Shown here: one piece after another, positions 28,016-47,678 of the stretch
Numbering within the stretch: the first letter of the stretch is position 1
Layout: each line of letters starts with the position of its first letter
Assembly: GCF_002563895.1 (NCBI RefSeq)
Contig: NZ_PDJB01000001.1
Coordinates: forward strand, 4,013,501-4,077,500
DNA from: Pseudomonas lurida
Lineage (GTDB): Bacteria; Pseudomonadota; Gammaproteobacteria; Pseudomonadales; Pseudomonadaceae
Direction of reading: 5' to 3'
Length of the DNA: 64,000 nucleotides
The notes under the pieces: model-generated
Databases searched by the model: none
Told to the model about the DNA's origin: nothing
Seen by the model: only the letters and a program-made list of their open reading frames with translations
Translations under genes and position numbers: made by a program

Positions 28016-28115
28016 CGCACCAAACGCCGCGCACTCTTATGCTGGCTCTTCACCGGTCGGCGAGTGAACCAAGCGCGCCGGCGCTGCTTGTCGATGTGTT
28101 CTGGAAAAGATCTTG

Positions 28116-30482
28116 ATGAATTTTTCGCGCCTGCTCTGCTCGGTTGCGCTGCTGCTCAATGCCTCACTGGCACTCGCCCAAGGCTTCAAAATCTCGGATA
28201 TTCGAATCAATGGCCTGCAACGGGTCTCGGCGGGCAGTGTGTTCGGTGCATTGCCGCTGAACGTCGGCGACGAAGCCGATGACCGGCGCCTGGTGGATTC
28301 CACCCGGGCGTTGTTCAAGACCGGTTACTTCCAGGACATCCAGTTGAGCCGCGAAGGCGACGTGCTGATTATCAATGTAGTCGAGCGCCCTTCGGTTGCC
28401 AGTATCGAGTTCGAGGGCAACAAAGCGATCGCCACCGATGACCTGATGAAAGGCATGAAGCAATCAGGCCTGGCCGAAGGCGAGATATTCCAGCGCGCCA
28501 CCCTGGAAGGCGTGCGCAATGAACTGCAGCGCCAGTACGTGGCCCAGGGGCGCTATTCGGCGTCGGTCGACACCGAGGTCGTGCCCCAACCGCGCAACCG
28601 CGTGGGCCTGAAGATCAAGATCGACGAAGGCGAAGTGGCATCGATCCAGCACATCAATGTGGTCGGCAATACGGTATTCGCCGACGACGCCTTGCTCGAC
28701 CAATTCACGCTCAAGACCAGTAACTGGCTGTCCTTTTTCAGGAACGACGACAAATATGCGCGGGAGAAACTCTCCGGCGACCTTGAACGCCTGCGCTCCT
28801 TTTACCTGGACCGCGGCTACATCAACATGGATATCACCTCGACGCAGGTCTCCATGACCCCGGACAAAAAGCACGTGTACATCACCGTGAATATCCAGGA
28901 AGGCCAGAAATACACGGTGCGCGACGTCAAGTTGAGTGGCGAGCTGAAAGTCCCGCAGGATCAGGTCCAGGCGTTGTTACTGGTGCAAAAGGGCCAAGTG
29001 TTTTCGCGCAAATTGATGACCACCACGTCGGACCTGATCACCCGCCGCCTGGGCAACGACGGCTACACGTTCGCCAACGTCACCGGCACGCCGCAGGTGC
29101 ATGAAGCAGACCACACGGTCGATATCACCTTCAGCGTCGATCCCGGCAAGCGGGCCTACGTCAACCGTATCAACTTCCGGGGCAATACCAAGACCGACGA
29201 CCAGGTGCTGCGTCGCGAAATGCGCCAGATGGAGGGCGGCTGGGCCTCGACCTACTTGATCGACCAGTCCAAGGTGCGCCTGGAGCGCCTGGGGTACTTC
29301 AAGGAAGTGAACGTCGAGACGCCAGCGGTGACCGGGTTGGATGACCAACTGGATGTGAACTACACCGTGGAAGAGCAAGCGTCCGGCTCGATCACCGCCA
29401 GCGTCGGCTTCGCCCAGAGCTCGGGGCTAATCCTTGGCGGGTCGATTACCCAGAACAACTTTCTCGGCACAGGCAACTCCGCCAGCCTGGGGCTGACCCG
29501 GTCGTCCTACCAGAGCAAGTACAACATCGGTTTCACCGATCCCTACTTCACTCGTGATGGAGTGAGCCTGGGTTACAACGCGTTCTACAACAAGACCGAC
29601 TACAACAAATACTACGATGACGGGGTGTCCTATTACGCCATCAACAGTTATGGCCTGGGCGCCAGCCTCGGCTACCCGATCAATGAGACGTCGCGCCTGA
29701 GTTTCGGCCTGACCGCCCAACACGACAGTATCGAACCGGGCACCTACAGCGCCGACGAGATCTACGACTTCATCGAGCGCGAAGGCAAACAGTTCACCAA
29801 CTTCAAAGCCAACCTGGGCTGGTCGGAATCGACCTTGAACAAAGGCGTGCTGGCAACGCGTGGACACGCGCAAAACCTCAACCTGACGGTGACGGTGCCT
29901 GGCAGTGACCTGAGTTTCTACAAAATCGACTACACGGGGCAAACCTTCCTGCCGGTCAGCAACAACACCGCCCTGCGCTTGCATACCAAGCTCGGTTACG
30001 GCAACGGCTACGGTTCCACCGACGGCTTACCCTTCTATGAAAGCTATACCGCCGGCGGTGAAGGCACGGTACGCGGTTTTGAAAGCGGCACGCTCGGCCC
30101 ACGCAGCACCCCGGCGACCGGGGCTTATGCCAGCGCCGGCCAGGCATACTATTCGGACCGGGATACGGAGGCGCTGGGCGGCAATATCCTGATTACCGGC
30201 GGCGCGGAGTACTTGTTCCCGGTGCCGTTCATCAAGGACAACAAATCCGTGCGCACTTCGCTGTTCTGGGATGTGGGCTCGGTGTATTCGGACAAGTGCT
30301 ACCTGAGCACGACCCAAGGCTGCGGCGGCGTAGACCTGAGCCAGATGGCGAGTTCGGTGGGGGTGGGAGTGACCTGGTACAGCCCGCTGGGGCCGTTGAG
30401 CGTCAACCTGGCTTATCCGATTCGCACGCCTGAGAACGCAGACAAGCAGGTCTTCCAGTTTTCCATGGGGCAGACGTTCTAA
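28116..30482 (+). CDS. bamA: BamA-family outer-membrane assembly factor (extra copy)
   Basis: This 788-residue protein has a signal peptide (LLCSVALLLNASLALAQ), five POTRA domains (about 24-420, starting FKISDIRINGLQRVSAGSVF) and a 16-strand barrel with the lid-loop motif TVRGFESG and end FSMGQTF. Length and layout are those of full BamA, which inserts beta-barrel proteins into the outer membrane. The housekeeping bamA of Pseudomonas lies with rseP, skp/ompH and lpxD; none of those is here, so this is probably a paralogue. The ATG 28116 has GGAAAAG upstream. It is divergent from a two-component system and followed by yeeE-like genes. Confidence 0.9.
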   Translation: MNFSRLLCSVALLLNASLALAQGFKISDIRINGLQRVSAGSVFGALPLNVGDEADDRRLVDSTRALFKTGYFQDIQLSREGDVLIINVVERPSVASIEFEGNKAIATDDLMKGMKQSGLAEGEIFQRATLEGVRNELQRQYVAQGRYSASVDTEVVPQPRNRVGLKIKIDEGEVASIQHINVVGNTVFADDALLDQFTLKTSNWLSFFRNDDKYAREKLSGDLERLRSFYLDRGYINMDITSTQVSMTPDKKHVYITVNIQEGQKYTVRDVKLSGELKVPQDQVQALLLVQKGQVFSRKLMTTTSDLITRRLGNDGYTFANVTGTPQVHEADHTVDITFSVDPGKRAYVNRINFRGNTKTDDQVLRREMRQMEGGWASTYLIDQSKVRLERLGYFKEVNVETPAVTGLDDQLDVNYTVEEQASGSITASVGFAQSSGLILGGSITQNNFLGTGNSASLGLTRSSYQSKYNIGFTDPYFTRDGVSLGYNAFYNKTDYNKYYDDGVSYYAINSYGLGASLGYPINETSRLSFGLTAQHDSIEPGTYSADEIYDFIEREGKQFTNFKANLGWSESTLNKGVLATRGHAQNLNLTVTVPGSDLSFYKIDYTGQTFLPVSNNTALRLHTKLGYGNGYGSTDGLPFYESYTAGGEGTVRGFESGTLGPRSTPATGAYASAGQAYYSDRDTEALGGNILITGGAEYLFPVPFIKDNKSVRTSLFWDVGSVYSDKCYLSTTQGCGGVDLSQMASSVGVGVTWYSPLGPLSVNLAYPIRTPENADKQVFQFSMGQTF

Positions 30483-31417: not shown

Positions 31418-31655
31418 GTGCCGATCCAACTTATTGGCTGAAAGGGGACAAACCACGATGGCTGCGCGAGCGCTATTATCATCGGCGCGAATACCCGTCC
31501 CTGAAACGCTGTGATAGGGCAAATCAACCGACGTGATATGACGCTCTCAGTCAACTCTGACCGCTGTGAACAAGTAACAGCAACGCTCGAGAACTAAAGT
31601 TGAAGTGCCAGGGGAAGCAACCCCAGCTCACAACTCCAATAATAGAGCGACGTCA

Positions 31656-32648
31656 ATGAGACTGACACCATCCTTGCCAGCGTGCCTGGCCCTCAGTTGC
31701 GTATCACTTGCCGCCTTTGCTGCCGAGGGCCCACCACCGCCCTCGGTCAGCCAACCCAGCGGCATCAACCTGGGCGGCACCAGCTTCTACGACGGGTTCG
31801 CCGGGCCACCGGGGCTGACGCATCAGACCTATTTGAAGTTCAGTACGTCCAGCAGCATCCGTGACAATGGCGGCAAGGACAACGGCAACTTCGATAACCC
31901 GAAGATCAATGTCATTACCCTGATCAACCAGTTCAGCTATTACTCACCGGACACCATCGGCGGCGGCGCGCACCTGGGCTGGAGCCTGTTGGTCCCGGTG
32001 GTTTCCCTGGACGGCGACTTCGGCGACAACGGCGTCAAACTCAAGGACAACGGGGTCGGCCTGGGTGACGTCACTGTCGGCCCGCAGATCCAGTTCGATC
32101 CGCTCGTCAACGCCGAAGGCCGACCGTTCTTCGTGCAACGCGTGGCCTTCGATACGATCCTGCCCACAGGCAAGTACGACAAACACAAGGACTTGAACCC
32201 CGGCTCCCATTACTTTTCCTTCAACCCCTACTGGGCCGCGACCTTGATGCCAGCACCGCGCTGGGAAGTGAGCTGGCGCTTGAATTACCTGTACAACTTC
32301 AAGAACGACGATCCGGCGAGCAGCTCGGCACAGTTCTTTGAAGGGCGCCCCGTGCGCGACACCCAATCAGGGCAATCGGCCTGGGCCAACTTTACCGCCT
32401 CCTACGAGGTGTACCCAAAAGTCTCGGTCGGGATCAACGGCTATTACTTCCGGCAGATTTCCGATGACCAGGTCAACGGCGACCGCCTGAGCAACTCTCG
32501 TGAGAAAGTCCTTGGCATTGGCCCGGGCCTGTTCTGGAAGATCACGGAGGACAAGGCGTTCTGGCTCAATACCTATAAAGAAACCGGCGTAGAGAACCGC
32601 AGCAAGACCGATTACGCCGTGCAAGTTCGCTACGTCCATAAGTTCTGA
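31656..32648 (+). CDS. SphA/MetA-type outer-membrane channel-like protein
   Basis: This 330-residue secreted protein has a signal peptide (LPACLALSCVSLAAFAAEG) and a body of amphipathic strands typical of the phenol-degradation MetA family (Pfam Phenol_MetA_deg), with NVITLINQFSYYSPDTIGG, GVGLGDVTVGPQIQF, DTILPTGKYDKHKDLNPGS and final aromatic residue (YVHKF). Such genes lie in aromatic catabolic operons and probably encode outer-membrane entry pores. It opens the catabolic block, 15 bp before an MFS gene. I chose ATG 31656 because it starts the signal peptide. The 238 bp upstream (31418-31655) probably holds the operon promoter, though none is clear. Confidence 0.82.
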   Translation: MRLTPSLPACLALSCVSLAAFAAEGPPPPSVSQPSGINLGGTSFYDGFAGPPGLTHQTYLKFSTSSSIRDNGGKDNGNFDNPKINVITLINQFSYYSPDTIGGGAHLGWSLLVPVVSLDGDFGDNGVKLKDNGVGLGDVTVGPQIQFDPLVNAEGRPFFVQRVAFDTILPTGKYDKHKDLNPGSHYFSFNPYWAATLMPAPRWEVSWRLNYLYNFKNDDPASSSAQFFEGRPVRDTQSGQSAWANFTASYEVYPKVSVGINGYYFRQISDDQVNGDRLSNSREKVLGIGPGLFWKITEDKAFWLNTYKETGVENRSKTDYAVQVRYVHKF

Positions 32649-32663
32649 CTGAGGTGATGTGTG

Positions 32664-33845
32664 ATGAATGCGCTCGACTCCATCGACAGCAAACAATCAC
32701 TGGGCGCTATTTGCCTGATGATGGTCATTTCCCTGGGAACACTGCAGATCCAGCCGATCCTGGGCGGCGCGCTGATTGATCAACTGGGGGTGCCGCTCAA
32801 TGCCATCGGCGTGATCTTCGCCGCCGAGCTGATAGCGATGGCCATCGCCTGTGGCGTATGTGCCCTGCTCATGGCGCGCGTCGACCGCCGCCGCTTTGCA
32901 CGGGTAGCCTTGCTGATACTGGCCGTCGGCAACCTGGTTAGCACCCAGCTTCACAGCCAGACGTGGCTGGTGGTCTTGCGGATCATCTGCGGCGCCAGCG
33001 GTGGCGCGGTCATGGCGGTGGTGTACGCGACCGCTGCACTGCGCCGGTCCAAAGATGCAACGTTTGCAGTGATCAATATCGGCAACCTGTTATGGGGCAT
33101 GCTGCTGGTCACCTCGATGCCTCTGCTGCTGCAGGTCTTCGGCGTGCGCGGTGCCTTTGGCCTGCTGGCCATCACCAGCCTGCTCGCCGCACTGGGTTGC
33201 GGGAGAATCCCCAGGTACTACCCGGACGCCCAACGCATCGCCCATGGCGCGGCCCGACCGTTCGGGCTGACCTCGCTGCTGCTGATCGCGCTGTTTGCGC
33301 TGCTGTTCTTCGGGCATTCCGCCCTGTGGGTGTACCAGGAGCGAATCGGTAAAAGCCTGGGCCTGGAACCTCAGCAGATCGGGGCTATCCTCGGTGGCAG
33401 CATCCTGGCGGGTGCCCTGGGTGCGGGCCTCTCCGGGCTGATCGGACGGCGGCTTGGCCTGTTGTTCCCGCAACTGTTGAGCTTCGGTGCTGCGTTAGTG
33501 GCGACCTTGATCATGGTATACGGCGACAGTACCGTTGCCTTTGCCACCACGGCGTGCCTGATCCATATGGTGTGGTTTTTCAGCTTGCCGTACCTGCTTT
33601 CCATGGCTGCCGAACTGGATCCCTCCGGGCGCCTGGCGGGCCTGGGCAATGCCGCGATATTCATCGGGCAAGGGCTTGGCCCCTTTGGCGCCGCGCTGGT
33701 GGTCGGCGAGGGGCATTTCCGTGCGGTGGGCTGGCTGGCCGCCTGCGCTTATGGGCTGGCCTTGATTATCTCGTGCCTGGTGGTGGCCCGCTTCCGTCGC
33801 GGCGTCAAGCCTCGCGGGCAGGCCCTGTCAGCCCAATCCGCCTGA
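32664..33845 (+). CDS. MFS transporter
   Basis: This 393-residue major-facilitator protein has about twelve hydrophobic helices. The loop between helices 2 and 3 reads MARVDRRRFARVAL, a degenerate MFS motif. GAGG at 32651 serves either GTG 32661 or the chosen ATG 32664. It lies between the outer-membrane protein and the carotenoid-oxygenase-type gene and 35 bp before the latter, so it probably imports (or exports) the aromatic substrate. Its closest functional relatives cannot be told from sequence alone. Confidence 0.88.
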   Translation: MNALDSIDSKQSLGAICLMMVISLGTLQIQPILGGALIDQLGVPLNAIGVIFAAELIAMAIACGVCALLMARVDRRRFARVALLILAVGNLVSTQLHSQTWLVVLRIICGASGGAVMAVVYATAALRRSKDATFAVINIGNLLWGMLLVTSMPLLLQVFGVRGAFGLLAITSLLAALGCGRIPRYYPDAQRIAHGAARPFGLTSLLLIALFALLFFGHSALWVYQERIGKSLGLEPQQIGAILGGSILAGALGAGLSGLIGRRLGLLFPQLLSFGAALVATLIMVYGDSTVAFATTACLIHMVWFFSLPYLLSMAAELDPSGRLAGLGNAAIFIGQGLGPFGAALVVGEGHFRAVGWLAACAYGLALIISCLVVARFRRGVKPRGQALSAQSA

Positions 33846-33880
33846 ACGATGTCAACCGAACCGATCAATGAGATAACCCG

Positions 33881-35326
33881 ATGAATACGCCATTCCCCAA
33901 CACCCCGGAGTTTTCCGGGGCACTGTATGCACCCAGCCGCGTCGAGGGCGACGTGTATGACCTTGAGATCGAAGGCGCCCTTCCCGAGGCGATCCGTGGC
34001 GCCTTTTACCAGGTATCACCCGACCCGCAGTACCCGCCCATGCTCGGCAGCGATATTTTCTTCAATGGCGATGCCTTGGTCAGCGGCTTTTATTTTGCCG
34101 ATGGCAAGGTCTCACTGCGCCGCCGCTATGTGCTGACCGATCGCCTGGTCGCCCAGCGCCGCGAAGGGCGTTCGCTCAATGGTGTGTACCGTAACGTCTA
34201 CACCAACGACCCGCTGGCGGCCAAGAACAACACCACCGCTAACACGTCGGTGATCCCGCACAACAACGTCCTGCTGGCCCTCAAGGAGGATGCCATGCCC
34301 TGGGCGCTGGACCCGCAGACCCTGGAGACCCTCGGCGAGTGGAATTTCGACGGGCAGATCGACGCCGCGACGTTCACTGCCCACCCCAAGCTCGACCCCG
34401 TCACGGGAAACCTGCTGGCCTTCAGTTACGAAGCCAAGGGCGACGGCACACCCGACATGGCCTATTTCGAGATATCGCCGGAGGGCAAGCTGCTGCATGA
34501 AATCTGGTTCCAGGCGCCCTACGCCGCGATGGTCCACGACTTCGCGGTCACGGAAAGGTATGTGGTGTTCCCGCTGATCCCGTTGACGGTGGACGTCGAG
34601 CGCATGAAAAAAGGCGGCCAGCATTTTCAGTGGCAGCCCGAGTTGCCCCAGCTGTTTGCCGTAGTGCCCCGCCACGGCCATGCGCGCGACGTGCGCTGGT
34701 TCAAAGGGCCCAAGGACGGCTTCCAGGGCCATACCCTGAATGCGTTCGATGAAGACGGCAAAGTCTATGTGGACATGCCGGTTACCGGCGGCAACATCTT
34801 CTATTTCTTCCCCCAGGCGGACGGTTTCGTACCGCCGCCGGAGACCCTGGCCGCCAGCCTGATGCGCTGGACATTCGACCTGAACAGTGCGCAGGATGAG
34901 CTGCAACCCCAGGCGCTGACGGACTATCCCTGCGAATTTCCCCGCTGCGATGACCGCTACATCGGCCGCAAGTATGAACATGGGTTCCTCCTCGCCTTCG
35001 ATCCAGAGCGCCCGTACAACCCGTCGAACGGGCCGATGCCATTCCAGTTTTTCAACCTGCTGGTTCACCTCAACCTCACGACCGGTGTCACCGATGCCTG
35101 GTTTCCCGGCGACAGTGGCTGTTTCCAGGAACCCATTTTTATTCCGCGCTCCGCGCAAGCCGCAGAAGGCGATGGCTATGTCGTCTGCCTGCTCAACCTG
35201 ATCGCCGAAGGCCGCAGCGAACTGGTGGTGCTGGACGCCACTGACATGGCCGCCGGCCCCCTCGCACGCATCAAGATCCCGTTCCGCATGCGCATGTCAC
35301 TGCACGGCTGCTGGGCACCGCGCTAA
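33881..35326 (+). CDS. Carotenoid-cleavage-oxygenase family enzyme, lignostilbene/isoeugenol type
   Basis: This 481-residue iron(II) dioxygenase has its four iron-binding histidines at His168 (TAHPK), His219 (VHDF), His284 (FQGHTLNAF) and His475 (SLHGCW), almost exactly the spacing I remember for the stilbene oxygenase NOV1 (167, 218, 284, 476). Tyr103 and Lys135 fall where the phenol-binding Tyr/Lys of that group lie, pointing to a 4-hydroxyphenyl alkene (stilbene, isoeugenol) rather than a carotenoid. It would split the C=C bond to aromatic aldehydes with O2. The aldehyde dehydrogenase downstream fits. Confidence 0.88.
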   Translation: MNTPFPNTPEFSGALYAPSRVEGDVYDLEIEGALPEAIRGAFYQVSPDPQYPPMLGSDIFFNGDALVSGFYFADGKVSLRRRYVLTDRLVAQRREGRSLNGVYRNVYTNDPLAAKNNTTANTSVIPHNNVLLALKEDAMPWALDPQTLETLGEWNFDGQIDAATFTAHPKLDPVTGNLLAFSYEAKGDGTPDMAYFEISPEGKLLHEIWFQAPYAAMVHDFAVTERYVVFPLIPLTVDVERMKKGGQHFQWQPELPQLFAVVPRHGHARDVRWFKGPKDGFQGHTLNAFDEDGKVYVDMPVTGGNIFYFFPQADGFVPPPETLAASLMRWTFDLNSAQDELQPQALTDYPCEFPRCDDRYIGRKYEHGFLLAFDPERPYNPSNGPMPFQFFNLLVHLNLTTGVTDAWFPGDSGCFQEPIFIPRSAQAAEGDGYVVCLLNLIAEGRSELVVLDATDMAAGPLARIKIPFRMRMSLHGCWAPR

Positions 35327-35433
35327 GTCGCACCCTCCCTCTCCTACAAGCAACACGCCCGTGACCATCCACTTGCTGGAAGGACGCGGGCTGCCCGATT
35401 GCCGGTCTGGATCCGATGATCGAACAGAAAAAT

Positions 35434-35491
35434 CGCATTTATTTCGCATTGCAGGATTTATGCATAAATCCCACTTTACAGGATTAATGCG
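35434..35491. promoter_or_regulatory. Palindromic operator-like region upstream of the FAH gene
   Basis: This contains the perfect 18 bp palindrome GGATTTATGCATAAATCC (35454-35471). CAGGATTTATGC (35452-35463) is repeated as CAGGATTAATGC (35479-35490), 27 bp on. CGCATT occurs at 35434 and 35445, and its inverse AATGCG at 35486. The cluster lies 80-115 bp before the FAH start in a 223 bp gap, the largest gap inside the catabolic block, and an IclR regulator gene is two genes on. It is a good candidate for the IclR operator and a second promoter. Confidence 0.6.
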
Positions 35492-35549
35492 CAGGACTAG
35501 ATTGAACCCATTGCCGCCATCTCCCGCATCCTTTTCGAGAGGACACTTC

Positions 35550-36401
35550 ATGAAACTCGCAAGCTTCAGTCTTCACGGTCGCACAACCTACGGTGTGGTC
35601 GACGGTGATCAACTGATAGACCTGGAATCGGTCAAACCCACCTTTGGCACCGACCTAAAGCACGCCATCGCCGCCAATCGCCTGGGGGAACTGACCCCAG
35701 CCGTGCTCGCGCCACTGCCCCGCGTGCCAGTGGCCGACGTGACCTTCCTGCCAGTGATCGCCAATCCCGGCAAAGTGCTGTGCATCGGCATCAACTACGC
35801 CACCCACGTGCGTGAGACCGGGCGTGACATGCCGACTTATCCAATGATCTTCACGCGCTTCGCCGACAGCCAGGTCGCGCACCTGCAGCCGATCATCCGT
35901 CCGAAGGTGTCGCACAAACTGGATTTCGAAGGCGAGCTCGCGGTGGTCATCGGCAAAACCGCAAGGCACGTCAACGCCGCGGACGCGCTGGACTACGTGG
36001 CCGGCTATGCCTGCTACAACGATGGCAGTGTGCGCGACTGGCAGAAGCACACGCTCCAATTCGTGCCCGGCAAGAATTTCCCCCAAACCGGTGGATTCGG
36101 CCCCTGGATGGTGACCCGCGATGAGATCAGCGACCCGCAGGAGCTGGAACTGACCACGCGCCTGAACGGCGAAGTGATGCAACACACCCGCACCAGCGAC
36201 ATGATTTTCGACGTGCGCCAGTTGATCGAGTACTGCTCCACGTTCACCGAACTGGCACCCGGCGACGTGATTGTCAGCGGCACCACCGGTGGCGTCGGAG
36301 CCTTCCGCGAACCGCCGGTGTGGATGAAGCCCGGCGACACCGTCGAAGTCGAGATAAGCGGCATCGGCCTCCTGCGCAACAGCATCGCCGACGAGCAGTG
36401 A
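35550..36401 (+). CDS. Fumarylacetoacetate-hydrolase (FAH) family enzyme
   Basis: This 283-residue enzyme has the FAH-family core KVLCIGINYATHVRETG, KLDFEGELAVVIGK (metal-binding Glu residues), GYACYNDGSVRDWQ, and SDMIFDVRQLIEYCS with the C-terminal SGTTGGVGAFR. The family hydrolyses C-C bonds in ring-cleavage products or works as an isomerase/decarboxylase. GAGAGGAC precedes ATG 35550; an upstream extension of the frame has no similarity. It is 3 bp before the IclR gene. It probably handles the product of the dioxygenase encoded further on. Confidence 0.9.
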   Translation: MKLASFSLHGRTTYGVVDGDQLIDLESVKPTFGTDLKHAIAANRLGELTPAVLAPLPRVPVADVTFLPVIANPGKVLCIGINYATHVRETGRDMPTYPMIFTRFADSQVAHLQPIIRPKVSHKLDFEGELAVVIGKTARHVNAADALDYVAGYACYNDGSVRDWQKHTLQFVPGKNFPQTGGFGPWMVTRDEISDPQELELTTRLNGEVMQHTRTSDMIFDVRQLIEYCSTFTELAPGDVIVSGTTGGVGAFREPPVWMKPGDTVEVEISGIGLLRNSIADEQ

Positions 36402-36404
36402 GTC

Positions 36405-37223
36405 ATGAATCTACTTGAATCAGAACGCCCGTCTGAGCTGGAAGCCGATAGCAAAGGCTCCAGCCTGGAACGCATGCTGCGGGTGCTGGATCTGTTCACC
36501 GAGGCCAGCCCGATCTGGGCGGTGGACGAAATGGGCGCTGCGCTGGGTTACACCCGCTCGACCATCTACCGCTACGTACGCGAACTGGCCGAGGCGAGCC
36601 TGTTGTTTCAGGTCGAAGCCGGACGCTATGCGCTGGGCGCACGGATCATCACCTGGGACCGCCAGTTGCGCCTGAGCGACCCTCTGGTGCGCGCGGCGCA
36701 GTCGCTGGAACAGGCTCTGCCACGCTGGAGCGAGCAACAGGTGTGGCTGATCTGCCGGCTGTTCAAGGATCAGGTGGTGTGTATCCACCAGCATGGCGAA
36801 TTGTTCAGTGAGGTCAGCTACTCCCGGGGCTCACCCAGGCCGTTGTTCCTTGGCGCGACATCGAAAGCGATCCTCGCCAACATGACCTCGCGCCAGCACC
36901 GCCAGCTGTTCCTGGAAAACCCGGACGAAGTGCGCGCCAGCCACTTGGGCCAGACCTGGGAACAATTCCGGCGCGCGCTGCAGCAACTGCGTCGCCAGGG
37001 CTATGTCGCCAGTGCGGCGGAAATCGATCCCGGCGTCTACGGCCTTGCGGCACCGATCTTCGACAGCGACGGCAAGGTGCTGGGCAGCATCAGTTGCGTG
37101 CGCCCGATCCAGGAGCGCGACAACACCCAGGAAGCGCAACAAGGGGAACAGATGCTGGCCCTCGCGCAGACACTCTCGCAACGCATGGCGGCCTTGACTC
37201 ACCGCCCCGCGCAGCCGGACTGA
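36405..37223 (+). CDS. IclR-family transcriptional regulator
   Basis: This 272-residue regulator has an N-terminal winged helix-turn-helix (LERMLRVLDLFTEASPIWAVDE, then MGAALGYTRSTIYRYVRELAEASLL, in parts) and a C-terminal effector domain with SRGSPRPLFLGATSKAILA and LAAPIFDSDGKVLGSISCV. The family senses aromatic acids and controls catabolic genes. It lies inside the operon between the FAH hydrolase and the hydroxylase, an arrangement that would give feedback control. The palindrome region 35434-35491 is its likely binding place (inference). Confidence 0.92.
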   Translation: MNLLESERPSELEADSKGSSLERMLRVLDLFTEASPIWAVDEMGAALGYTRSTIYRYVRELAEASLLFQVEAGRYALGARIITWDRQLRLSDPLVRAAQSLEQALPRWSEQQVWLICRLFKDQVVCIHQHGELFSEVSYSRGSPRPLFLGATSKAILANMTSRQHRQLFLENPDEVRASHLGQTWEQFRRALQQLRRQGYVASAAEIDPGVYGLAAPIFDSDGKVLGSISCVRPIQERDNTQEAQQGEQMLALAQTLSQRMAALTHRPAQPD

Positions 37224-37244
37224 AACCTTTGGAAGGGAATAACA

Positions 37245-38891
37245 ATGACAACCCTCAACAGCTTCAGCACTCAAGTCCTGATCATCGGCGCCGGCCCCAC
37301 CGGACTGACCCTGGCCAACCTGCTTGGCCAGGGTCAGGTGGATACCCTGATCATCGACCGCAAGGCCGGCACCGTGACCGAGCCCCGCGCTGTCTCGATC
37401 GACGATGAATCCCTGCGCACCATGCAGGCGATCGGGCTGGACGCCGCCGTGCTACGCGATGTGGTGCCCGGCTACGGCGTGCATTACTTCACCCGCGCGG
37501 GCGGGCGTTGCTTTGGCAAGGTCGAGCCCACCGGCAAGGTGTATGGGTTTCCCAAACGCAATGCCTTTCGCCAGCCACTGTTCGAACACACACTGAAGAC
37601 CGGCCTTGAGCGCTTTGCGAGCGTGACGGCTCGCTTCAATCATGAACTGCTGGAGTTCACTCAAGACGCGCACGGCGTGCGCGCCCTGATCATGGACGCC
37701 GATGGCCAATTGCTCGACGTCAAGGCCAACTACCTGGTCGCCTGCGACGGCGGCCGCAGCCCGGTGCGCAAGCAACTGGGAATCGAGATGGTCGGGTCGA
37801 GCTTCTCCTCGCGCTGGCTGGTGGTCGATACCGACCAGGACGAAGACCCGTTCTGGCAGACCCGCGTGTACTGCGATGCCCGGCGCCCGGTGGTAGAAGT
37901 TCCCGGCCCGCACCGTACGCGGCGTTTCGAATTCATGCTCCGCCCGGACGAAACCGAGGACCAAGTGCTCAGCCCGCAAAGCCTGCACACGCTGCTGCGT
38001 CCGTTCAAAGGCGATGCCCCGGTGTCAATCGTGCGCAAGACGGTCTACACCTTTCACGCCCGCGTGGCCGAGCGCTGGCAGGTGGGCCGCGTATTGCTCG
38101 CCGGCGATGCCGCACACCTGACCCCGCCTTACGCTGGGCAAGGGATGAACAGCGGCGTGCGCGATGCACACAATCTGGGCTGGAAGTTGATCGGCGTACT
38201 CAACGGCAAATTGGCCGTGACCGCCTTGCAGTCCTACGAAAGCGAACGGCGCGGGCATGCCTGGGCCTTGATCAAGTTGGCGCTGAACCTGGGCGTGGTC
38301 ATGGCGCCGGCTACCGTGCTGCGGGCTCGCCTTATCAGCGCAGCATTCGCATTGGTCGGCCTGGTGCCGCCGCTGCGCGACTATTTCCTGCAGATGCGCT
38401 TCAAGCCAAAACCACGCTTTATCCAAGGCCTGGTACTGCCCGACGGCAAGGCCGGAAAGCTGGCCTGTGGGCAAATGTTTCCTCAGCCGCTGCTGACCGA
38501 TGCCCAAGGCCACACCCAGTTGCTGGACGCGAGCATCGGTGCCGGCTTTGCCCTGATCCAATATGGCGACCCTACTCGCCAGCGCCTTGATGAACTGCGC
38601 CACGGTCTTTGGGATCACCTGGAGGCCAAGCGCATCCTGATCCTGCCTGCGCACGTCCAGGCCCTGCCTTCGCTGCCTGGCTGCACCGTACTTCAAGACC
38701 ATGAGGATGCGCTCAAGGACCTGCTCGGCGACAGCCAAACGTTTGTGTTGCTGCGCCCTGATCGCTATGTCGCCGCCCTCTTCGACCGGACCACCCAAGA
38801 CCAGGCCGCCGCCGCCTTGCAGGCGCTGTTCGGCATCCCCCCGACAAGCGCCTGCGCGGATCAACCGGCCATGGCCCCCGTCTACCCCTGA
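37245..38891 (+). CDS. FAD-dependent aromatic monooxygenase (MhpA-like)
   Basis: This 548-residue flavoprotein hydroxylase of the PHBH/MhpA group has the FAD Rossmann motif GAGPTGLTLANLLGQ near the start, the CDGGRSPVRKQLG motif and the second FAD motif LLAGDAAHLTPPYAGQGMNSG. The C-terminal 170 residues form the thioredoxin-like domain of long members. GGAAGGG precedes the start. It should add a hydroxyl group to a phenolic acid using NAD(P)H and O2, preparing it for the dioxygenase encoded 22 bp downstream. The precise substrate is unknown. Confidence 0.92.
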   Translation: MTTLNSFSTQVLIIGAGPTGLTLANLLGQGQVDTLIIDRKAGTVTEPRAVSIDDESLRTMQAIGLDAAVLRDVVPGYGVHYFTRAGGRCFGKVEPTGKVYGFPKRNAFRQPLFEHTLKTGLERFASVTARFNHELLEFTQDAHGVRALIMDADGQLLDVKANYLVACDGGRSPVRKQLGIEMVGSSFSSRWLVVDTDQDEDPFWQTRVYCDARRPVVEVPGPHRTRRFEFMLRPDETEDQVLSPQSLHTLLRPFKGDAPVSIVRKTVYTFHARVAERWQVGRVLLAGDAAHLTPPYAGQGMNSGVRDAHNLGWKLIGVLNGKLAVTALQSYESERRGHAWALIKLALNLGVVMAPATVLRARLISAAFALVGLVPPLRDYFLQMRFKPKPRFIQGLVLPDGKAGKLACGQMFPQPLLTDAQGHTQLLDASIGAGFALIQYGDPTRQRLDELRHGLWDHLEAKRILILPAHVQALPSLPGCTVLQDHEDALKDLLGDSQTFVLLRPDRYVAALFDRTTQDQAAAALQALFGIPPTSACADQPAMAPVYP

Positions 38892-38913
38892 ACCTTCAGC
38901 CCCAGAGGTGTTT

Positions 38914-39762
38914 ATGCAAACCTTGCAGACTTCTACCCCCGCACGCTTGTGCTACTTGCACCTGGCGAGCAAAGCGCCCCAGCAGCAAGTTGACTTCTAT
39001 CAGCGCCTGCTGGACATGGACGGCCTGGCGCAGGCAGACGGCAGCTGGCTGCTCCAGGGGCCGCAACGGGCCATGCTGATCTCGCCCGCCGACCACAGCG
39101 GCCTGCTCGCGGCCGCGTACGACCTGGGCAGCCAAGCGCGCTTGAGCGAACTGCGCACGCGCCTGGTGGGCAAGGGTTGTAGCGTCGAAGCGCTCGACTC
39201 GCCGCTGCTGGAAGCCGGCGCCTTTCAAATCCGTGACCCCCAGGGCCGGCAGACCGTGTTTGGCGTGTCGCGTGGCGCCGTCGCCACCGACCGCAAGGGC
39301 ATGCCGGGTCGCCTGCAGCATGTGGTGTTCCAGACCACGGAACTGGAAGCGATGATCGACTTCTACGTCAACACGGTCGGGTTCACGGTCTCGGACAATG
39401 TCGTCGATGAGCAGAGCGGCCAGCTCACGACCTGCTTCCTGCGTTCAGACGACGAGCACCACTCGCTGGCGTTTTTCCGCGGTTCGAAAAACGAATGGGA
39501 TCATCACTGTTACGAAACCAACGAGTGGAATGACATTCGCGACTGGGGCGACCGTTTCGCCAAGGAGCGGATTACATTGTTCTTTGGCCCGGGTCGCCAC
39601 GGTCCGGGCAATAACCTGTTCTTCATGGTGGTCGATGCCGATCGCAATCGCCTGGAGTTCTCGGCGGAGCTGGAAATTACCGAAGCTGGCCGCGCGCCAG
39701 GCGTCTGGCCCCAAGAGGAATACACCCTCAACTCCTGGGGACGCGCCTGGATCCGCAGCTGA
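38914..39762 (+). CDS. Extradiol-type (VOC) ring-cleavage dioxygenase
   Basis: This 282-residue two-module vicinal-oxygen-chelate protein has its metal ligands in the C-terminal module at His136 (RLQHVVF), His197 or 198 ([11 protein letters not shown]) and Glu249 (NRLEFSAE), the 2-His-1-Glu pattern of extradiol dioxygenases such as BphC. AGAGGTG precedes ATG 38914; a longer frame overlaps the hydroxylase and is rejected. It should open a di- or trihydroxylated ring next to the hydroxyls. It lies between the hydroxylase and the aldehyde dehydrogenase. Confidence 0.88.
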
Positions 39763-39832
39763 AAAGACACACTTCAACGGGTCTGCCCTCACCCACCCTC
39801 AATCAACGCGGCTACCTGCCCAAGGTAAGACA

Positions 39833-41311
39833 ATGACAATTAAAACCTTCGCGACCTACGCCATCAGCGGCGACCAATACATCAACGGCACCTGGCGCAC
39901 AGGTCGTTCGACACGCCGCCTGGATGACCGTAACCCGTTCAACGGCGAACGCTTGCTGGAAATGCCCCTGGCCTCGGTGGCCGACCTGGATGACGCCTAC
40001 CAGGCTGCCCAGCGCGCACAGACCGACTGGGCAGCGCTGCACCCGACCCAGCGCGGTGCGCAGCTGGAAAAACTCGCCCAAGTCATTCAGGACCGTAGCG
40101 AAGAAATCATCGACTGGCTGATCCGTGAGTCCGGCAGTACCCGTATCAAGGCGGGGATGGAATGGCAGTTCACCCTCAACCTGGTTCGCGAGTGCGCAAC
40201 GCTGCCGATGCAGGTTGAGGGGCGGATCCTGAGCAGCTACAAGCCTGGCGAACAGAGCTTCGTGTTTCGCGAGCCGCTGGGCGTGGTCGGCGTCATCAGC
40301 CCCTGGAATTTCCCGCTGTACCTGAGCATGCGCTCGGTGGTCCCGGCCCTGGCGCTGGGCAATACCGTGGTGCTCAAGCCCGCCAGTGACACGGCGGTCA
40401 CCGGTGGCCTGCTGATTGCGCATCTGTTCGAAGAAGCCGGGTTCCCCGCGGGTTCGCTGAATGTGGTGGTCGGCGCGGGCTCGGAGATTGGTGATGCATT
40501 CGTCGAGCACCCGATACCAAGCCTGATCTCCTTCACCGGTTCCACCGACGTGGGCCGCAATGTCGGACGCATCGCCACCGGCGGCAAGCACATCAAGCGC
40601 GTGGCGCTGGAACTGGGCGGCAACGCACCGCTGGTGGTCCTGGACGATGCGGACATCGAGATCGCGGCGCATGCCGCCGTGGTCGGGCGGTTCCTGCATC
40701 AGGGCCAGATCTGCATGAGCGTCAACCGCGTCATTGTCGATCGTTCGCTGTATGCCGACTTCGCCGCGCTGGTGGTCGAGCGCGTGCGCAACCTCAAGAC
40801 CGGTGACCCGGCCAAGGCCGATACGGTAATCGGGCCGGTGGTCAACCAGAGCCAGCTCGATGGCCTGCTGGGGAACATCGACGCAGCCGAACGTGCCGGC
40901 CTCACGCAACTGTGTGGCGGCCAGGCGCAGGGGCTGGTGCTGCCGCCCCATGTCTTCGGCGATGTGGGCGCCGACCAGGCATTGGCCCGCGATGAAACCT
41001 TCGGCCCGTTATTGCCATTGATGATTGCACGCAATCAGGCCCACGCCCTGGAATTGGCCAACGCAAGCGAATATGGTCTATCCAGCGCCGTGTTCACCCG
41101 GGACATGGCGCGCGGCCTCAGTTTTGCGCGTGGCATCGTGGCGGGCATGACCCATATCAACGACATCACCGTCGATGATCAACCCAATGCACCGTTCGGT
41201 GGCGAGAAGAACTCCGGCCTTGGGCGTTTCAACGGTCACTATGCCCTGGATGAGTTTACCCGGGCCCATTGGGTCACCTGGCAAGCAGGGAGCCACCGCT
41301 ACCCATTCTGA
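39833..41311 (+). CDS. Aldehyde dehydrogenase (benzaldehyde/vanillin type)
   Basis: This 492-residue NAD(P)-dependent dehydrogenase has [18 protein letters not shown] at the cofactor site, the general-base Glu in [13 protein letters not shown], and the catalytic Cys in GQICMSVNR. Its size and the [16 protein letters not shown] pattern fit the benzaldehyde/vanillin dehydrogenase (XylC/Vdh) group. ATG 39833 is used; the much longer upstream frame crosses the dioxygenase gene in another phase. It would oxidise the aromatic aldehyde released by the stilbene/isoeugenol-type oxygenase. A hairpin follows the gene. Confidence 0.9.
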
Positions 41312-41326
41312 TCGCATGCCAGAATC

Positions 41327-41348
41327 GGGCAAGGCACTGTCCTTGCCC
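41327..41348 (+). terminator. Stem-loop after the aldehyde dehydrogenase gene
   Basis: GGGCAAGG (41327-41334), loop CACTGT and CCTTGCCC (41341-41348) make a perfect 8 bp stem 15 bp after the stop codon. There is no T-run, so it may reduce readthrough or stabilise the mRNA 3' end rather than end transcription fully. It separates the catabolic genes from the AraC-type regulator. Confidence 0.5.
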
Positions 41349-41383
41349 CTTCAGCCATAACAACAAGACAGAAGGCGAAACCA

Positions 41384-42382
41384 ATGAATAACCTAGCCTG
41401 TGTGTCCACCGAACAGGTCGTTCGCTCTGACCGGCTGATGAAGTGGAAAGAGTTCATGAGCGACCACCTGGGCCGCACGCCGGAGTATATAAAGCGCCTG
41501 GAAGCCACACACATCGACCCGTTGCACAACGGTAACTTCCAGGGGCGGCTGGAATACGGCGACCTGGGCCAGCTGCGTTTCTGCCGCATGACCGCCAGTG
41601 CCCATCGCTATTCACGCCACTTGAGCAAAGCGCTCGATGTCGTCGACACGCCGCGCATGCTGATCCTGCAAGTCGCCGGTGTCAGTCACTTCGAGCAAGG
41701 CCAGCAAAGCAGTACCGTCGCACCGGACGAAATGCTCCTGGTCGATTGTGGCAAGCCCTTCAGCGTCACCAGCACCCAGGGTTGCGAACACTTTATCCTG
41801 CTGTTCCAGGGCGCCGCCGGGCAACTGACGCAGACCGGCGACATGCACTTGAGTGGCCGCAACGGGCTGGGGCGTATGCTGATGCACCTGATCAGCGACG
41901 CTTACCATCAATACCCGTTGCTCAACAGCCAGTCGGCCGGACTGATCGGCGACAGCATCGCCGGGTTGCTGAACAACGCCTTGAAGAACAAGCAAGATGA
42001 AAAGCAACTGGACCACGACTTCCGTTTCTTCAAACAGAATCGCCTCAAGGCCTATATCGAGCGCCACCTGGCCGACCGCGACCTCAGCATCGAGCGTATC
42101 GCCAATGCCGAACAATGCTCGGTGCGCAGCTTGCACCGGGCCTTTCAGGATGAATTGGGCTGCAGCGTCAGCGAGTATATCTGGCAGCGCCGGTTATCCC
42201 GTTGCGCCGAGGACCTGCGCAACCGCGAACAGGCCCATCGCTCACTCACCGAGATTGCCTATGCCTGGGGCTACGGCAGCAGTTCGCATTTCAGCCGGCA
42301 CTTCAAATCGACATTCGGTATGTCACCACGACTGTTCCGGGAAACGGCCAGCGACAACCGCGCTCAATCGTCAGCCGTCTGA
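41384..42382 (+). CDS. AraC-family regulator (FeaR/NphR-like)
   Basis: This 332-residue regulator has an N-terminal AraC-binding-like domain (about 30-210) and a C-terminal double helix-turn-helix (LSIERIANAEQCSVRSLHRAFQDE, then SLTEIAYAWGYGSSSHFSRHFKSTFG, in parts). This architecture is common in activators of phenylacetaldehyde, 4-hydroxyphenylacetate and isoeugenol pathways. It ends the catabolic block and points toward nhpR, which is also AraC-type but on the other strand; the two genes end 12 bp apart. It probably activates the catabolic genes upstream. Confidence 0.9.
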   Translation: MNNLACVSTEQVVRSDRLMKWKEFMSDHLGRTPEYIKRLEATHIDPLHNGNFQGRLEYGDLGQLRFCRMTASAHRYSRHLSKALDVVDTPRMLILQVAGVSHFEQGQQSSTVAPDEMLLVDCGKPFSVTSTQGCEHFILLFQGAAGQLTQTGDMHLSGRNGLGRMLMHLISDAYHQYPLLNSQSAGLIGDSIAGLLNNALKNKQDEKQLDHDFRFFKQNRLKAYIERHLADRDLSIERIANAEQCSVRSLHRAFQDELGCSVSEYIWQRRLSRCAEDLRNREQAHRSLTEIAYAWGYGSSSHFSRHFKSTFGMSPRLFRETASDNRAQSSAV

Positions 42383-42394: not shown

Positions 42395-43330
42395 TCAATT
42401 GCGGCGCAAAAGGGTATTCGGTGCAACGCCAAAGGCCTTGCGAAATGCATGGCTGAAATGGGAAAAGTCGGAAAACCCGAAGTCCAGCGCCGCCTGGGAC
42501 ACGCTGCGCACCTGGCCGCGCTCGATCGCTTCACGGCTGGCATTCAGGCGCTCTCTCCAGATCTCGGCAACGGGGGTTTTCTGGTAGCGCGCGAACGCAC
42601 GTGTCACGGTTCGCGTGGACACATTATGGGCCTGCGCGATGACGTCGATGGACAGGTCCGGCTCGGTCAAGTGCCGCTGGATGTACTGCATGATACGACC
42701 GTAGAGGTCCAGCTCCTGGTGGGTTGTCTTCAGGTCCTGGAGTTCCAGGCTTATCACCAGCAGGTCAATCAATGCGCCGGAATAACGATTGGAGATGTGC
42801 TCATCCTGCAACGACATCGGCGAGCTGGCGGCCTGGCGCAACATTTCACGCAAGGGAACGACGCCGGGGCGGCGGTCGTCGAGGACCATCGCAGTGTAAT
42901 CGGCGATTCGTGGCAGACGCTCGGTCAGTAAGGCACGCGGAATACGGACCAAGTGGTTTTCGGTACCACCGAAGCTGAATCGAAACGCCTGTGTTGCGTC
43001 ATAAAGAAACAAATTTCCAGTTGCCAGATTGGCTTTCCTTCCGCCTTGCTCAATTTGTCCATGGCCATTTCGGGAGAACCCCAGCCATAAATCTTCAGCC
43101 GGGCCGCTGCGCAAGTGTCGCTCGGAACGCTCCCAGTAATGCAGCGGCGAAGACAGCGAACAGATGTCCAGGTCGCCAAGCGTGTTGATCGCGAGCGCGC
43201 CATCAAAACTGCTCTGGGACAAGGGTTTGCTGTCTGCTGCCAGACAATGGCGGCACACCACTTCCTTCCAGTAATCAAAGCGACGCGGTGCCGACACTGC
43301 AAGGGTTGAATACTGAGTGCTCGGGTTCAT
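42395..43330 (-). CDS. nhpR: AraC/XylS-family activator of the nitrile cluster, NhpR
   Basis: This 311-residue regulator has an N-terminal sensing domain and a C-terminal HTH pair (LSIDVIAQAHNVSTRTVTRAFARYQ, then SVSQAALDFGFSDFSHFSHAFRKAFG, in parts). The gene is exactly 936 bp and ends about 1.5 kb before oxdA on the other strand, the size and place I recall for nhpR of P. chlororaphis B23, the amide-responsive activator of the nitrile hydratase cluster. A sigma-54 type promoter lies upstream (43403-43418). Identity of the inducer here is inferred from that precedent. Confidence 0.88.
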   Translation of the reverse strand: MNPSTQYSTLAVSAPRRFDYWKEVVCRHCLAADSKPLSQSSFDGALAINTLGDLDICSLSSPLHYWERSERHLRSGPAEDLWLGFSRNGHGQIEQGGRKANLATGNLFLYDATQAFRFSFGGTENHLVRIPRALLTERLPRIADYTAMVLDDRRPGVVPLREMLRQAASSPMSLQDEHISNRYSGALIDLLVISLELQDLKTTHQELDLYGRIMQYIQRHLTEPDLSIDVIAQAHNVSTRTVTRAFARYQKTPVAEIWRERLNASREAIERGQVRSVSQAALDFGFSDFSHFSHAFRKAFGVAPNTLLRRN

Positions 43331-43689
43331 GACACTGACCTCGACATCAATGCAAAAGGCGCTAGATAAGGTGTAACTTGCGGCCGATTTTCAACCATCA
43401 GAAGCAATTTACAGGCCAAGCACCGGGGCAGTCCGCCCAAGCACGCTGCCGTGCGATGTCCAATGCAACACTCCCCAGGCCGCTGGCGATTGCCTGCGCC
43501 GCCCTCCCCATTTAGAGGCACGGCACGTCACGCGGTTGGCGCAGGTGCACCAACGCGGACCACGGCGCAATGTCAGGTCCTGCGGTGTCTTTTCCAACCA
43601 AACGGTTGTCCCGTCGAACAAAGCGCCCCCTTGCCACCCAGCCTAATTTCAACCTCACAGCAGCCCATACCCCGCTGATGAGGTACGCC
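43331..43689. other. Divergent control region between nhpR and the oxdA side
   Basis: This 359 bp stretch holds the nhpR promoter (see 43403-43418) and should hold NhpR operators for the oxdA side. Searching by eye for GG-N10-GC on the plus strand I found no good sigma-54 site; the closest is CTGGCGATTGCCTGC at 43483-43497, one base short in the spacer. No gene is visible here. Confidence 0.5.
43403..43418 (-). promoter_or_regulatory. Sigma-54 type -24/-12 promoter of nhpR
   Basis: On the minus strand this reads TGGCCTGTAAATTGCT, against the consensus TGGCACG-N4-TTGCT: GG and GC are separated by exactly ten bases and TTGCT is complete. Transcription would start near 43390, giving about a 60-base leader before nhpR. 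I recall that sigma-54 type sites were proposed for the B23 nitrile cluster, which supports it. Confidence 0.72.
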
Positions 43690-43851
43690 ATGCATCGACA
43701 CTATTCACAACAATTGGCTGATTCCTCCTGGCTTCTGCAGAGGCGCGACCTTGCCCCTGAAGAGTCGGCTTATTGGTTGATTGAATGGGGGGCCATGACG
43801 CTGCTGCACCGACGGCAAGCCGCCAAGCGCGACCTGCCGGCGAAGCGCTGA
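43690..43851 (+). CDS. Small unknown protein upstream of oxdA
   Basis: This 53-codon frame (MHRHYSQQLADSSWLLQRR, ending AAKRDLPAKR) has a good GAGGT ribosome site five to six bases before ATG 43690. An in-frame ATG at 43678 lacks one. It ends 42 bp before oxdA, on the same strand. It is rich in Trp, Arg and Leu, has no membrane helix or signal, and carries a basic tail. I recognise no family. It may be a leader peptide or a small accessory protein of the nitrile operon; it may also be chance. Confidence 0.5.
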   Translation: MHRHYSQQLADSSWLLQRRDLAPEESAYWLIEWGAMTLLHRRQAAKRDLPAKR

Positions 43852-43893
43852 CGCCCACCCGTAGGCCTGAACGAAAATAACGAGGAGCTCACC

Positions 43894-44952
43894 ATGGAAT
43901 CTGCAATCGATACACATCTCAAATGCCCACGCACCCTGTCCCGCCGGGTGCCCGACGAGTATCAACCGCCGTTCCCGATGTGGGTCGCGCGCGCTGATGA
44001 GCAACTGGAACAAGTGGTGATGGCTTACCTCGGCGTGCAATATCGCGGCGACGCCCAGCGCGAGGCCGCGTTGCAGTCGATGCGCCACATTGTCGGCAGT
44101 TTCAGTCTGGCCGATGGCCCTCAGACCCATGATTTGACCCACCACACCGACAGCAGTGGGTTTGATAACCTGATTGTGGTCGGGTACTGGAAAGATCCTG
44201 CCGCCCACTGTCGCTGGTTACGCTCCCCCCAGGTGAATGACTGGTGGAGTTCGCCGGATCGGCTCAGTGAGGGCCTGGGCTACTTCCGCGAAATCACCGC
44301 CCCACGCGCCGAGCAGTTCGAGACCCTGTACGCCTTCCAGGAAAACTTGCCCGGTGTCGGCGCGATCATGGATACCACCAGTGGCGAGATCGAAGAACAC
44401 GGTTACTGGGGCTCGATGCGCGACCGCTTCCCGATCTCCCAGACGGACTGGATGAAACCCACCAGTGAGCTGAAAGTGATCGCGGGTGACCCTGCCAAGG
44501 GTGGGCGGGTCGTGGTCCTGGGGCATGACAACCTCACGCTGATCCGCTCAGGCCAGGACTGGGCGGATGCCGAGGCGGACGAACGCTCGCTGTACCTCGA
44601 TGAGATTTTGCCGACCTTGCAGGATGGCATGGACTTCCTGCGTGACAACGGCCAACCGCTGGGCTGCTACAGCAACAGGTTCGTGCGCAATATCGACATT
44701 GACGGCAACTTTCTCGACGTGAGCTACAACATCGGCCACTGGCGCTCGGTGGAGAAACTCGAACGCTGGGCAGAGTCGCACCCTACCCACCTGCGTATCT
44801 TCGTGACGTTCTTCCGCGTGGCCGCTGGGTTGAAAAAGCTCCGGCTGTACCACGAAGTGTCCGTGTCAGACGCCAAGAGCCAGGTATTCGAGTACATCAA
44901 CTGTCACTCGCAGACCGGCATGTTGCGCGACGCGCTGTCGCCCACCGCCTGA
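43894..44952 (+). CDS. oxdA: Aldoxime dehydratase OxdA
   Basis: This 352-residue haem lyase converts aldoximes (R-CH=N-OH) to nitriles. Key residues known for P. chlororaphis OxdA lie at the same positions: proximal haem His299 (HPTHL), catalytic His320 (RLYHE), Arg178 (RDRF), Ser219 (LIRSG) and Glu143. Length is identical to that enzyme and most of the sequence agrees with my memory of it. GAGGAG precedes the start. It is the first main gene of the nitrile operon, and its product is the substrate of nitrile hydratase. Confidence 0.96.
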   Translation: MESAIDTHLKCPRTLSRRVPDEYQPPFPMWVARADEQLEQVVMAYLGVQYRGDAQREAALQSMRHIVGSFSLADGPQTHDLTHHTDSSGFDNLIVVGYWKDPAAHCRWLRSPQVNDWWSSPDRLSEGLGYFREITAPRAEQFETLYAFQENLPGVGAIMDTTSGEIEEHGYWGSMRDRFPISQTDWMKPTSELKVIAGDPAKGGRVVVLGHDNLTLIRSGQDWADAEADERSLYLDEILPTLQDGMDFLRDNGQPLGCYSNRFVRNIDIDGNFLDVSYNIGHWRSVEKLERWAESHPTHLRIFVTFFRVAAGLKKLRLYHEVSVSDAKSQVFEYINCHSQTGMLRDALSPTA

Positions 44953-45009
44953 GCGCCGTCGGCGCTTACCCCCCCATTTCCTGCTTCCTTGCCACCCTCA
45001 CCGGGTGGC
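44952..45009 (+). terminator. Two hairpins between oxdA and the outer-membrane gene
   Basis: The first is AGCGCC-GTC-GGCGCT (44952-44966), immediately after the oxdA stop. The second is GCCACCC-TCACC-GGGTGGC (44991-45009), a perfect 7 bp stem that ends 27 bp before the next start. Neither has a T-run. They may protect the oxdA message 3' end or set the ratio of oxdA to downstream expression. Confidence 0.5.
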
Positions 45010-45036
45010 GCGGTTTCCTGTGCGAGGAATAAAAAG

Positions 45037-45903: not shown

Positions 45904-45918
45904 CACACGCGTCCATCG

Positions 45919-47607: not shown

Positions 47608-47678
47608 CCGCCCCCCGCAGCGCAAAAAGAACAAGCCGCCAGGCGCTGCCCAGAAGCTCAATGATGAGGAATAAACCG

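Follow-up and report, generated by a model that had tools for sequence, protein, structure and literature searches.

Cutting of stilbenes by bacteria is known, and the common plant stilbenes resveratrol, piceatannol and pinosylvin share a 3,5-dihydroxyphenyl ring; which genes open that ring under aerobic conditions? The question is raised by a nine-gene cluster at 31656-42382 of a 64,000-nucleotide stretch of Pseudomonas lurida (the window; RefSeq assembly GCF_002563895.1, contig NZ_PDJB01000001.1, positions 4,013,501 to 4,077,500), a genome assembled as a single contig of 6.31 Mb. The cluster joins a stilbene-type oxygenase to adjacent genes for an FAH-family hydrolase, an IclR-type regulator, a flavin hydroxylase and a VOC-family dioxygenase, here called the ring-cleavage block. 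Our analysis suggests that this is a real, conserved stilbene-catabolic cluster whose upper step is already known. We think it probable that the cluster forms a catabolic route for plant hydroxystilbenes of the resveratrol type, including a proposed opening of the 3,5-dihydroxy ring by the block. We give roughly even chances to the broader proposal that 3,5-dihydroxybenzoate is degraded aerobically by a central pathway not described before (2-hydroxylation, C1-C2 cleavage, hydrolysis), one that has been combined repeatedly with a stilbene oxygenase across Pseudomonas, Marinomonas and Rhizobium.

An earlier note on this DNA had listed the genes as lying in one direction with two local regulators, and all nine are indeed intact plus-strand reading frames, placed as that note had placed them, with spacers of 12, 35, 223, 3, 21, 22, 70 and 72 nucleotides in order. 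Among 22 retrieved loci, 15 carry the full nine-gene set in identical order, the closest named one being that of Pseudomonas simiae, whose nine cluster proteins are 96-99% identical. When flanking genes of the window were used as queries, only this near-identical locus gave matches among the 15 (the sequence of one locus, L004, reaches just ~3 kb past the cluster). Collinearity of the nine genes without their flanks thus argues that the set is not a chance neighborhood. A second AraC gene (42395-43330, minus strand) and the aldoxime/nitrile genes beyond it were excluded from the cluster, being present only in the P. simiae locus among the 15.

The oxygenase is the sole RPE65-family match in the genome, and its RPE65/carotenoid oxygenase domain scores 447.2 bits against a Pfam gathering score of 27. 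Its best solved relative is PbLSD of Pseudomonas brassicacearum (5V2D; 996 bits over 480 residues), and 413 of 480 residues (~86%) are identical to the oxygenase of a second P. brassicacearum strain, whose locus carries the same nine genes as the window. All four iron-binding histidines (H168, H219, H284, H475) align to identical histidines of 5V2D, and the residues docked at resveratrol in PbLSD are kept (F61, T122, K135, F281, Q282), with Y103 also present. PbLSD is reported to convert resveratrol to 3,5-dihydroxybenzaldehyde and 4-hydroxybenzaldehyde; on lutein, its activity in vitro was undetectable (PMC6097328). The main text of that paper does not contain the words operon, cluster or upstream, and the accessible text names neither neighboring genes nor later steps. 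By this close homology, the favored role of the window oxygenase is to cut the central double bond of a hydroxystilbene. The earlier note had envisaged a phenolic alkene, and a stilbene-type substrate agrees with it; its isoeugenol, ferulate and coniferyl compounds are less favored than plant hydroxystilbenes because the oxygenase is orthologous to a resveratrol-cleaving enzyme.

In the route we propose, the oxygenase would convert a resveratrol-type stilbene to the same two aldehydes, and the aldehyde dehydrogenase of the cluster would oxidize both. In L015, a locus that lacks the block, the dehydrogenase gene lies immediately after that of the oxygenase, which fits such a role. The 4-hydroxybenzoate half can leave through PobA (one match over cut-off elsewhere in the genome) followed by protocatechuate 3,4-dioxygenase, whose beta subunit is also encoded elsewhere with a related gene adjoining; 4-hydroxybenzoate was set aside as a substrate of the block for this reason. 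Most likely, the block opens only the 3,5-dihydroxybenzoate half. The flavin enzyme would hydroxylate this acid at C2, yielding 2,3,5-trihydroxybenzoate, which the VOC dioxygenase would open between C1 and C2 to give 2,4,6-trioxoheptanedioate (2,4,6-trioxopimelate); the FAH-family enzyme would then split this symmetric acylpyruvate into pyruvate and oxaloacetate in one hydrolysis. The order from alkene through aldehyde, acid and hydroxylated ring to cleaved ring is the one first suggested in the earlier note, and we favor it as well, with ring cleavage by hydroxylase, VOC and FAH enzymes most likely confined to the 3,5-dihydroxy ring.

The enzymes of the block are consistent with these roles. 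The hydroxylase scores 772.7 bits against the MhpA-like model NF004831 (curated cut-off 546) and carries the motifs GAGPTG, DGGRSPVR and GDAAH. The VOC protein has the two-module catechol 2,3-dioxygenase fold, and its H138, H199 and E250 (numbered from base 38908) are invariant in 24/24 and 30/30 alignment rows; from alignment to 1mpy and recall, we take these to be the 2-His-1-carboxylate metal site. Fold and metal residues would both fit an extradiol dioxygenase. Relatives of the FAH protein include 2,4-dioxo-acid hydrolases and, among solved structures, L-2,4-diketo-3-deoxyrhamnonate hydrolase (residues 2-280), and H86, E89, D125, E127 and E129 are invariant in 11/11 sequences. Three further FAA_hydrolase matches occur in the genome, so deletion of the cluster FAH gene might be masked. 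The best NCBIfam match of the IclR protein is the PcaR/PcaU/PobR family, below cut-off.

To what extent do oxygenase and block travel together? In a sample of 398 Pseudomonas genomes, the oxygenase has matches in 31 (E<=1e-3), with at least 74% identity in 23, and the hydroxylase in 104 (E<=1e-90), with at least 67% identity in 29. Hydroxylases of at least 67% identity occur in 22 of the 23 genomes with an oxygenase of at least 74%, versus 7 of the 375 without. In all 22 both genes share one contig, their lower coordinates being separated by 3.4-3.8 kb in 21 genomes and by 6.4 kb in the last (G394), where an inverted block of dehydrogenase, VOC, hydroxylase, IclR and FAH genes occupies the strand opposite channel, MFS, oxygenase and AraC genes. 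The Fisher value for this co-occurrence, 4.5e-29, counts relatives as independent and uses identity cut-offs chosen after the gaps had been viewed, and so describes the pattern without testing it. G336, the only one of the 23 that lacks the hydroxylase, bears L015, which has genes 1, 2, 3, 8 and 9 only, i.e. the upper genes without the block. In a further genome (G125:C1:6480213-6481653) the oxygenase match is split into two overlapping parts, each in an open frame of its own, and the hydroxylase match is whole.

The association recurs beyond Pseudomonas. In Marinomonas profundimaris (L021/L127), Rhizobium leguminosarum CB782 and R. bangladeshense, block partners adjoin a 57-68% identical oxygenase in other gene orders (hydroxylase 46-50%, VOC 35-42%, FAH 52-71%); at the Marinomonas locus the block adjoins the oxygenase and a dehydrogenase of 40% identity. 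At E<=1e-30, a phylum-wide search of 398 genomes with the VOC protein matched two, the window's own and that of another Pseudomonas. Order-wide, the VOC profile matched 6 of 390 genomes at E<=1e-60, including those same two and one (G934) arranged like the Marinomonas locus. Incomplete blocks were also seen: of two order-level loci, one (L129) has hydroxylase and VOC and the other (L130) has VOC with FAH ~7 kb off, and a Caballeronia locus has FAH and VOC only. At six Pseudomonas loci with a remoter relative of the hydroxylase (38-41%; L114-L119), no VOC or FAH match was found at E 1e-3. Large plasmids of peanut-associated bradyrhizobia present a further variant, and peanut is a stilbene producer; on that of Bradyrhizobium guangxiense (L100, 3818-18339), a 49% oxygenase lies with a 44% FAH, a VOC, an MFS and a chemotaxis receptor gene, and the hydroxylase match is just 26%.

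Seven Pseudomonas genomes encode a 67-70% hydroxylase without the close oxygenase. In four of these (G201, G143, G101, G059), the contig with the hydroxylase also bears, ~7 kb away, a second kind of RPE65-family gene (29-31%; L086, L087, L097, L120); its neighbors in L086 encode a choline-dehydrogenase-like protein and, over cut-off, a benzaldehyde dehydrogenase of MdlD type. In G316 (78% complete), G044 and G070 the hydroxylase is present with zero oxygenase matches. In both of the two genomes whose transporter neighbors were examined (L086, L090), the gene just before FAH encodes an MFS protein nearest to the aromatic acid/H+ symporter model TIGR00895, and the block adjoins TRAP transporter genes in Aminobacter aminovorans (L104), Marinomonas (L127) and another member of the order (L128). 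Aromatic acid/H+ symporters and TRAP transporters typically carry carboxylates, and their presence here points to an aromatic acid as the entry compound. The block thus probably starts from a carboxylate, and 3,5-dihydroxybenzoate would fit both settings.

Is the cluster a single operon, as the earlier note supposed? The 223-nucleotide gap before the FAH gene holds a perfect dyad, GGATTTATGCATAAATCC, and a promoter-like TTTACA-17-TAGATT with the conserved element TTTACAGGAT. The 24 intergenic regions were all scanned and 16 of them aligned. A GATTT-N(4-7)-AAATC dyad at a nearly fixed 19-20 nucleotides before TTTACAGGAT is found in those 16 plus L014, i.e. in 17/17 loci of the window layout (the window, the 15 nine-gene loci and L096). 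Its form GGATTT-N6-AAATCC occurs at a single place in the genome. The promoter scan gave two promoter-like sites in this gap, including TTTACA-17-TAGATT; shuffles gave a mean of 2.8, so there is no excess. Conservation of dyad and promoter before the FAH gene nonetheless makes one operon doubtful and at least two transcription units likely. A second conserved block, beginning CGCTCTCAGTCAACTCTGACCG and ending at TAAAGT, precedes gene 1; it is kept over 19 aligned upstream regions, the window's included, and is kept just partially in L015 and in the inverted locus of G394 (L089). L015 also retains the AraC regulator (56%). Probably, the upper genes are under the AraC-type protein, and the ring-cleavage block, with a separate promoter, is under the IclR-type protein; the two conserved elements are their candidate binding sites.

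The closest precedent found for the block is hcdABC of Pseudomonas mandelii 7HK4, in which a flavin adenine dinucleotide (FAD) hydroxylase, a type I extradiol dioxygenase and an FAA-family hydrolase form one operon and a 2,3,5-trihydroxyphenyl ring is cut between C1 and C2 (PMC6222606). The window likewise has a class A flavin hydroxylase, an extradiol dioxygenase and an FAH hydrolase adjoining, with the IclR gene between hydrolase and hydroxylase. The substrate of hcdABC differs, being 2,3,5-trihydroxyphenylpropionate made by ipso-hydroxylation, and no stilbene oxygenase is named in the accessible text (PMC6222606). The HcdA, HcdB and HcdC sequences carry accessions MH346032-MH346034. The likeness is at the level of enzyme families, and C1-C2 cleavage in the window is proposed by analogy; the block would be a triad of hcdABC type, in a variant that probably acts on a new substrate. 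The earlier note had cited dinitrotoluene degradation as its precedent. In the orcinol and dinitrotoluene (trihydroxytoluene) pathways a trihydroxylated ring is indeed opened by an extradiol enzyme and the product hydrolyzed, but their rings are methyl-substituted and entry from a stilbene or carboxylate is absent. Oxidative cleavage is reportedly the first step of resveratrol breakdown in Acinetobacter. What is already known from that genus, as far as the source is quoted, is growth on resveratrol as sole carbon source (Kurt, Minoia and Spain 2018, as cited). The full gene set of the window was unfamiliar to the author of the earlier note, and we too found no description of it, or of genes for aerobic 3,5-dihydroxybenzoate cleavage, in searches of open-licence PubMed Central articles; a prior description in the subscription literature is possible.

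Several points weigh against the proposed route and are best considered together with the alternatives. The tyrosine usual in the second sphere of extradiol enzymes, presumably that at Tyr255 of 1mpy, is Met240 in the VOC protein in a gapless register (the HMMER register differs by two) and Phe in divergent members. Hydroxylation at C2 and at C4 cannot be told apart from sequence, and the substrates given for the FAH protein, hydroxylase, VOC protein and dehydrogenase are proposals. The same stilbene pathway could accordingly run through gallate, formed by C4 hydroxylation of 3,5-dihydroxybenzoate, or through a ring decarboxylated en route, with the VOC protein opening that ring; the hydroxylase is known by family only. 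We consider this unlikely, as the hcd triad, of the same three families, acts on a 2,3,5-trihydroxyphenyl ring. Known gallate dioxygenases, moreover, are of a different, LigB-type fold, and an FAH-family hydrolase would not be expected for the gallate cleavage product. The oxygenase also scores 577.5 bits against a cut-off of 800 for the lignostilbene-alpha,beta-dioxygenase equivalog NF053778 and is not filed under it. As this is its nearest curated NCBIfam model, and lignostilbene dioxygenase isozyme I is among its solved relatives, the natural substrates might instead be lignin-derived stilbenes, isoeugenol or coniferyl compounds, with the block serving a guaiacyl-derived acid. Vanillate breakdown needs O-demethylation and then protocatechuate cleavage, and no demethylase-family match was found among the nine genes in Pfam or NCBIfam. 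The nearest characterized enzyme, PbLSD, acts on resveratrol; isoeugenol and coniferyl compounds were set aside as main substrates on this ground, and the lignin alternative seems slightly less likely still.

The independence of oxygenase and block bears on a further alternative, that the block degrades some other aromatic acid by a pathway of its own and merely lies beside the stilbene genes. Within the stretches covered, six loci have the oxygenase without the block and show it to be independent: L015, L017-L019 (oxygenase alone), L020 (with a 48% FAH besides the oxygenase) and L023 (only the oxygenase end, on a fragment of 5.8 kb). Conversely, the block stands without the oxygenase in L090, L091, L088, L104 and L128, and a regulator and a promoter-like site belong to it alone. 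Also against the proposed route, dyad and TTTACAGGAT occur in 0/7 examined loci with other layouts, the symporter-like proteins of L086 and L090 score 350 and 378 against a TIGR00895 cut-off of 419, and the R. bangladeshense oxygenase match is split in two unannotated pieces, so this copy may be broken. Against a separate pathway stand linkage repeated across distinct layouts and genera and 22/23 co-occurrence in the sampled genus, and the oxygenase-free blocks are explained equally by direct uptake of 3,5-dihydroxybenzoate; we regard a separate pathway as improbable. Least credible by far is a true role of the oxygenase in carotenoid or apocarotenoid cleavage, which the earlier note had named as fatal to its proposal. 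The family includes carotenoid oxygenases, and PbLSD is reported to show weak, putative cleavage of lycopene in vivo (PMC6097328). This objection is largely answered, and the role was set aside, by the activity on resveratrol and the undetectable activity on lutein already described; the neighboring genes are aromatic-catabolic. Overall, oxygenase-hydroxylase linkage, recurrence in Marinomonas and Rhizobium, transporter neighbors and likeness to hcdABC argue for 3,5-dihydroxybenzoate as the substrate of the block.

Table 1. Genes and candidate control elements of the P. lurida cluster (window positions)
Feature	Position	Strand	Basis
Conserved promoter/regulator block upstream of gene 1; candidate AraC-type regulator site	31542-31605	+	
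Outer-membrane protein Phenol_MetA_deg (PF13557), probable entry channel	31656-32648	+	Pfam
MFS transporter (PF07690)	32661-33845	+	Pfam
RPE65-family stilbene-cleaving oxygenase, PbLSD (5V2D) orthologue	33881-35326	+	Pfam, homology
Perfect dyad, candidate IclR operator	35454-35471	+	
Promoter-like site for the ring-cleavage block	35475-35503	+	Conserved element, promoter scan
FAH-family hydrolase (FAA_hydrolase, PF01557), proposed 2,4,6-trioxopimelate (acylpyruvate) hydrolase	35550-36401	+	Pfam
IclR-family regulator (PF09339/PF01614) of the ring-cleavage block	36405-37223	+	Pfam
Class A flavin hydroxylase (FAD_binding_3, MhpA-like), proposed 3,5-dihydroxybenzoate 2-hydroxylase	37245-38891	+	Pfam, NCBIfam
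Type I extradiol dioxygenase (VOC/Glyoxalase), proposed 2,3,5-trihydroxybenzoate 1,2-dioxygenase	38914-39762	+	
Aldehyde dehydrogenase (PF00171), for hydroxybenzaldehyde products	39833-41311	+	Pfam
AraC/FeaR-like regulator	41384-42382	+	NCBIfam, Pfam

Other loci and neighboring genes were noted in passing. On plasmid pBAM2 of Aminobacter sp. MSH1, a 2,6-dichlorobenzoate plasmid (L103, 10007-11721), a 40% VOC and a 51% FAH lie near Rieske oxygenase, glutathione transferase and TRAP genes, and judged by these homologies the 2,6-dichlorobenzoate route of this strain may end in a similar hydroxybenzoate cleavage; the accessible text on MSH1 gave no details of ring opening. A plasmid of Pseudomonas putida YC-AE1 (L105, 5720-15381) carries a 42% oxygenase, an aldehyde dehydrogenase, an NTF2-like protein, a 2Fe-2S protein and a P450 between two IS91-family transposase genes, a set that looks like a mobile stilbene route of what we presume to be bisphenol type. 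In the window itself, 42395-50232 holds a neighboring aldoxime-nitrile-amide pathway with a FeaR-like AraC gene (minus strand), OxdA aliphatic aldoxime dehydratase, an outer-membrane protein, an amidase, both nitrile hydratase subunits (alpha and beta) and a ZigA-like GTPase; OxdA and the nitrile hydratase subunits score over their cut-offs, the GTPase below its own. Upstream, a BamA-family gene (over cut-off; 28113-30482) has the same position in the P. simiae locus and in L096.

The cluster supplies candidates for the genes, the promoter and the regulator site behind aerobic opening of the 3,5-dihydroxy ring, and its enzymes and IclR sensor could be of use in stilbene or resorcylate chemistry. 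It predicts which pseudomonads and rhizobia can fully remove stilbene phytoalexins, and so bears on the colonization of roots and leaves of stilbene-making plants.

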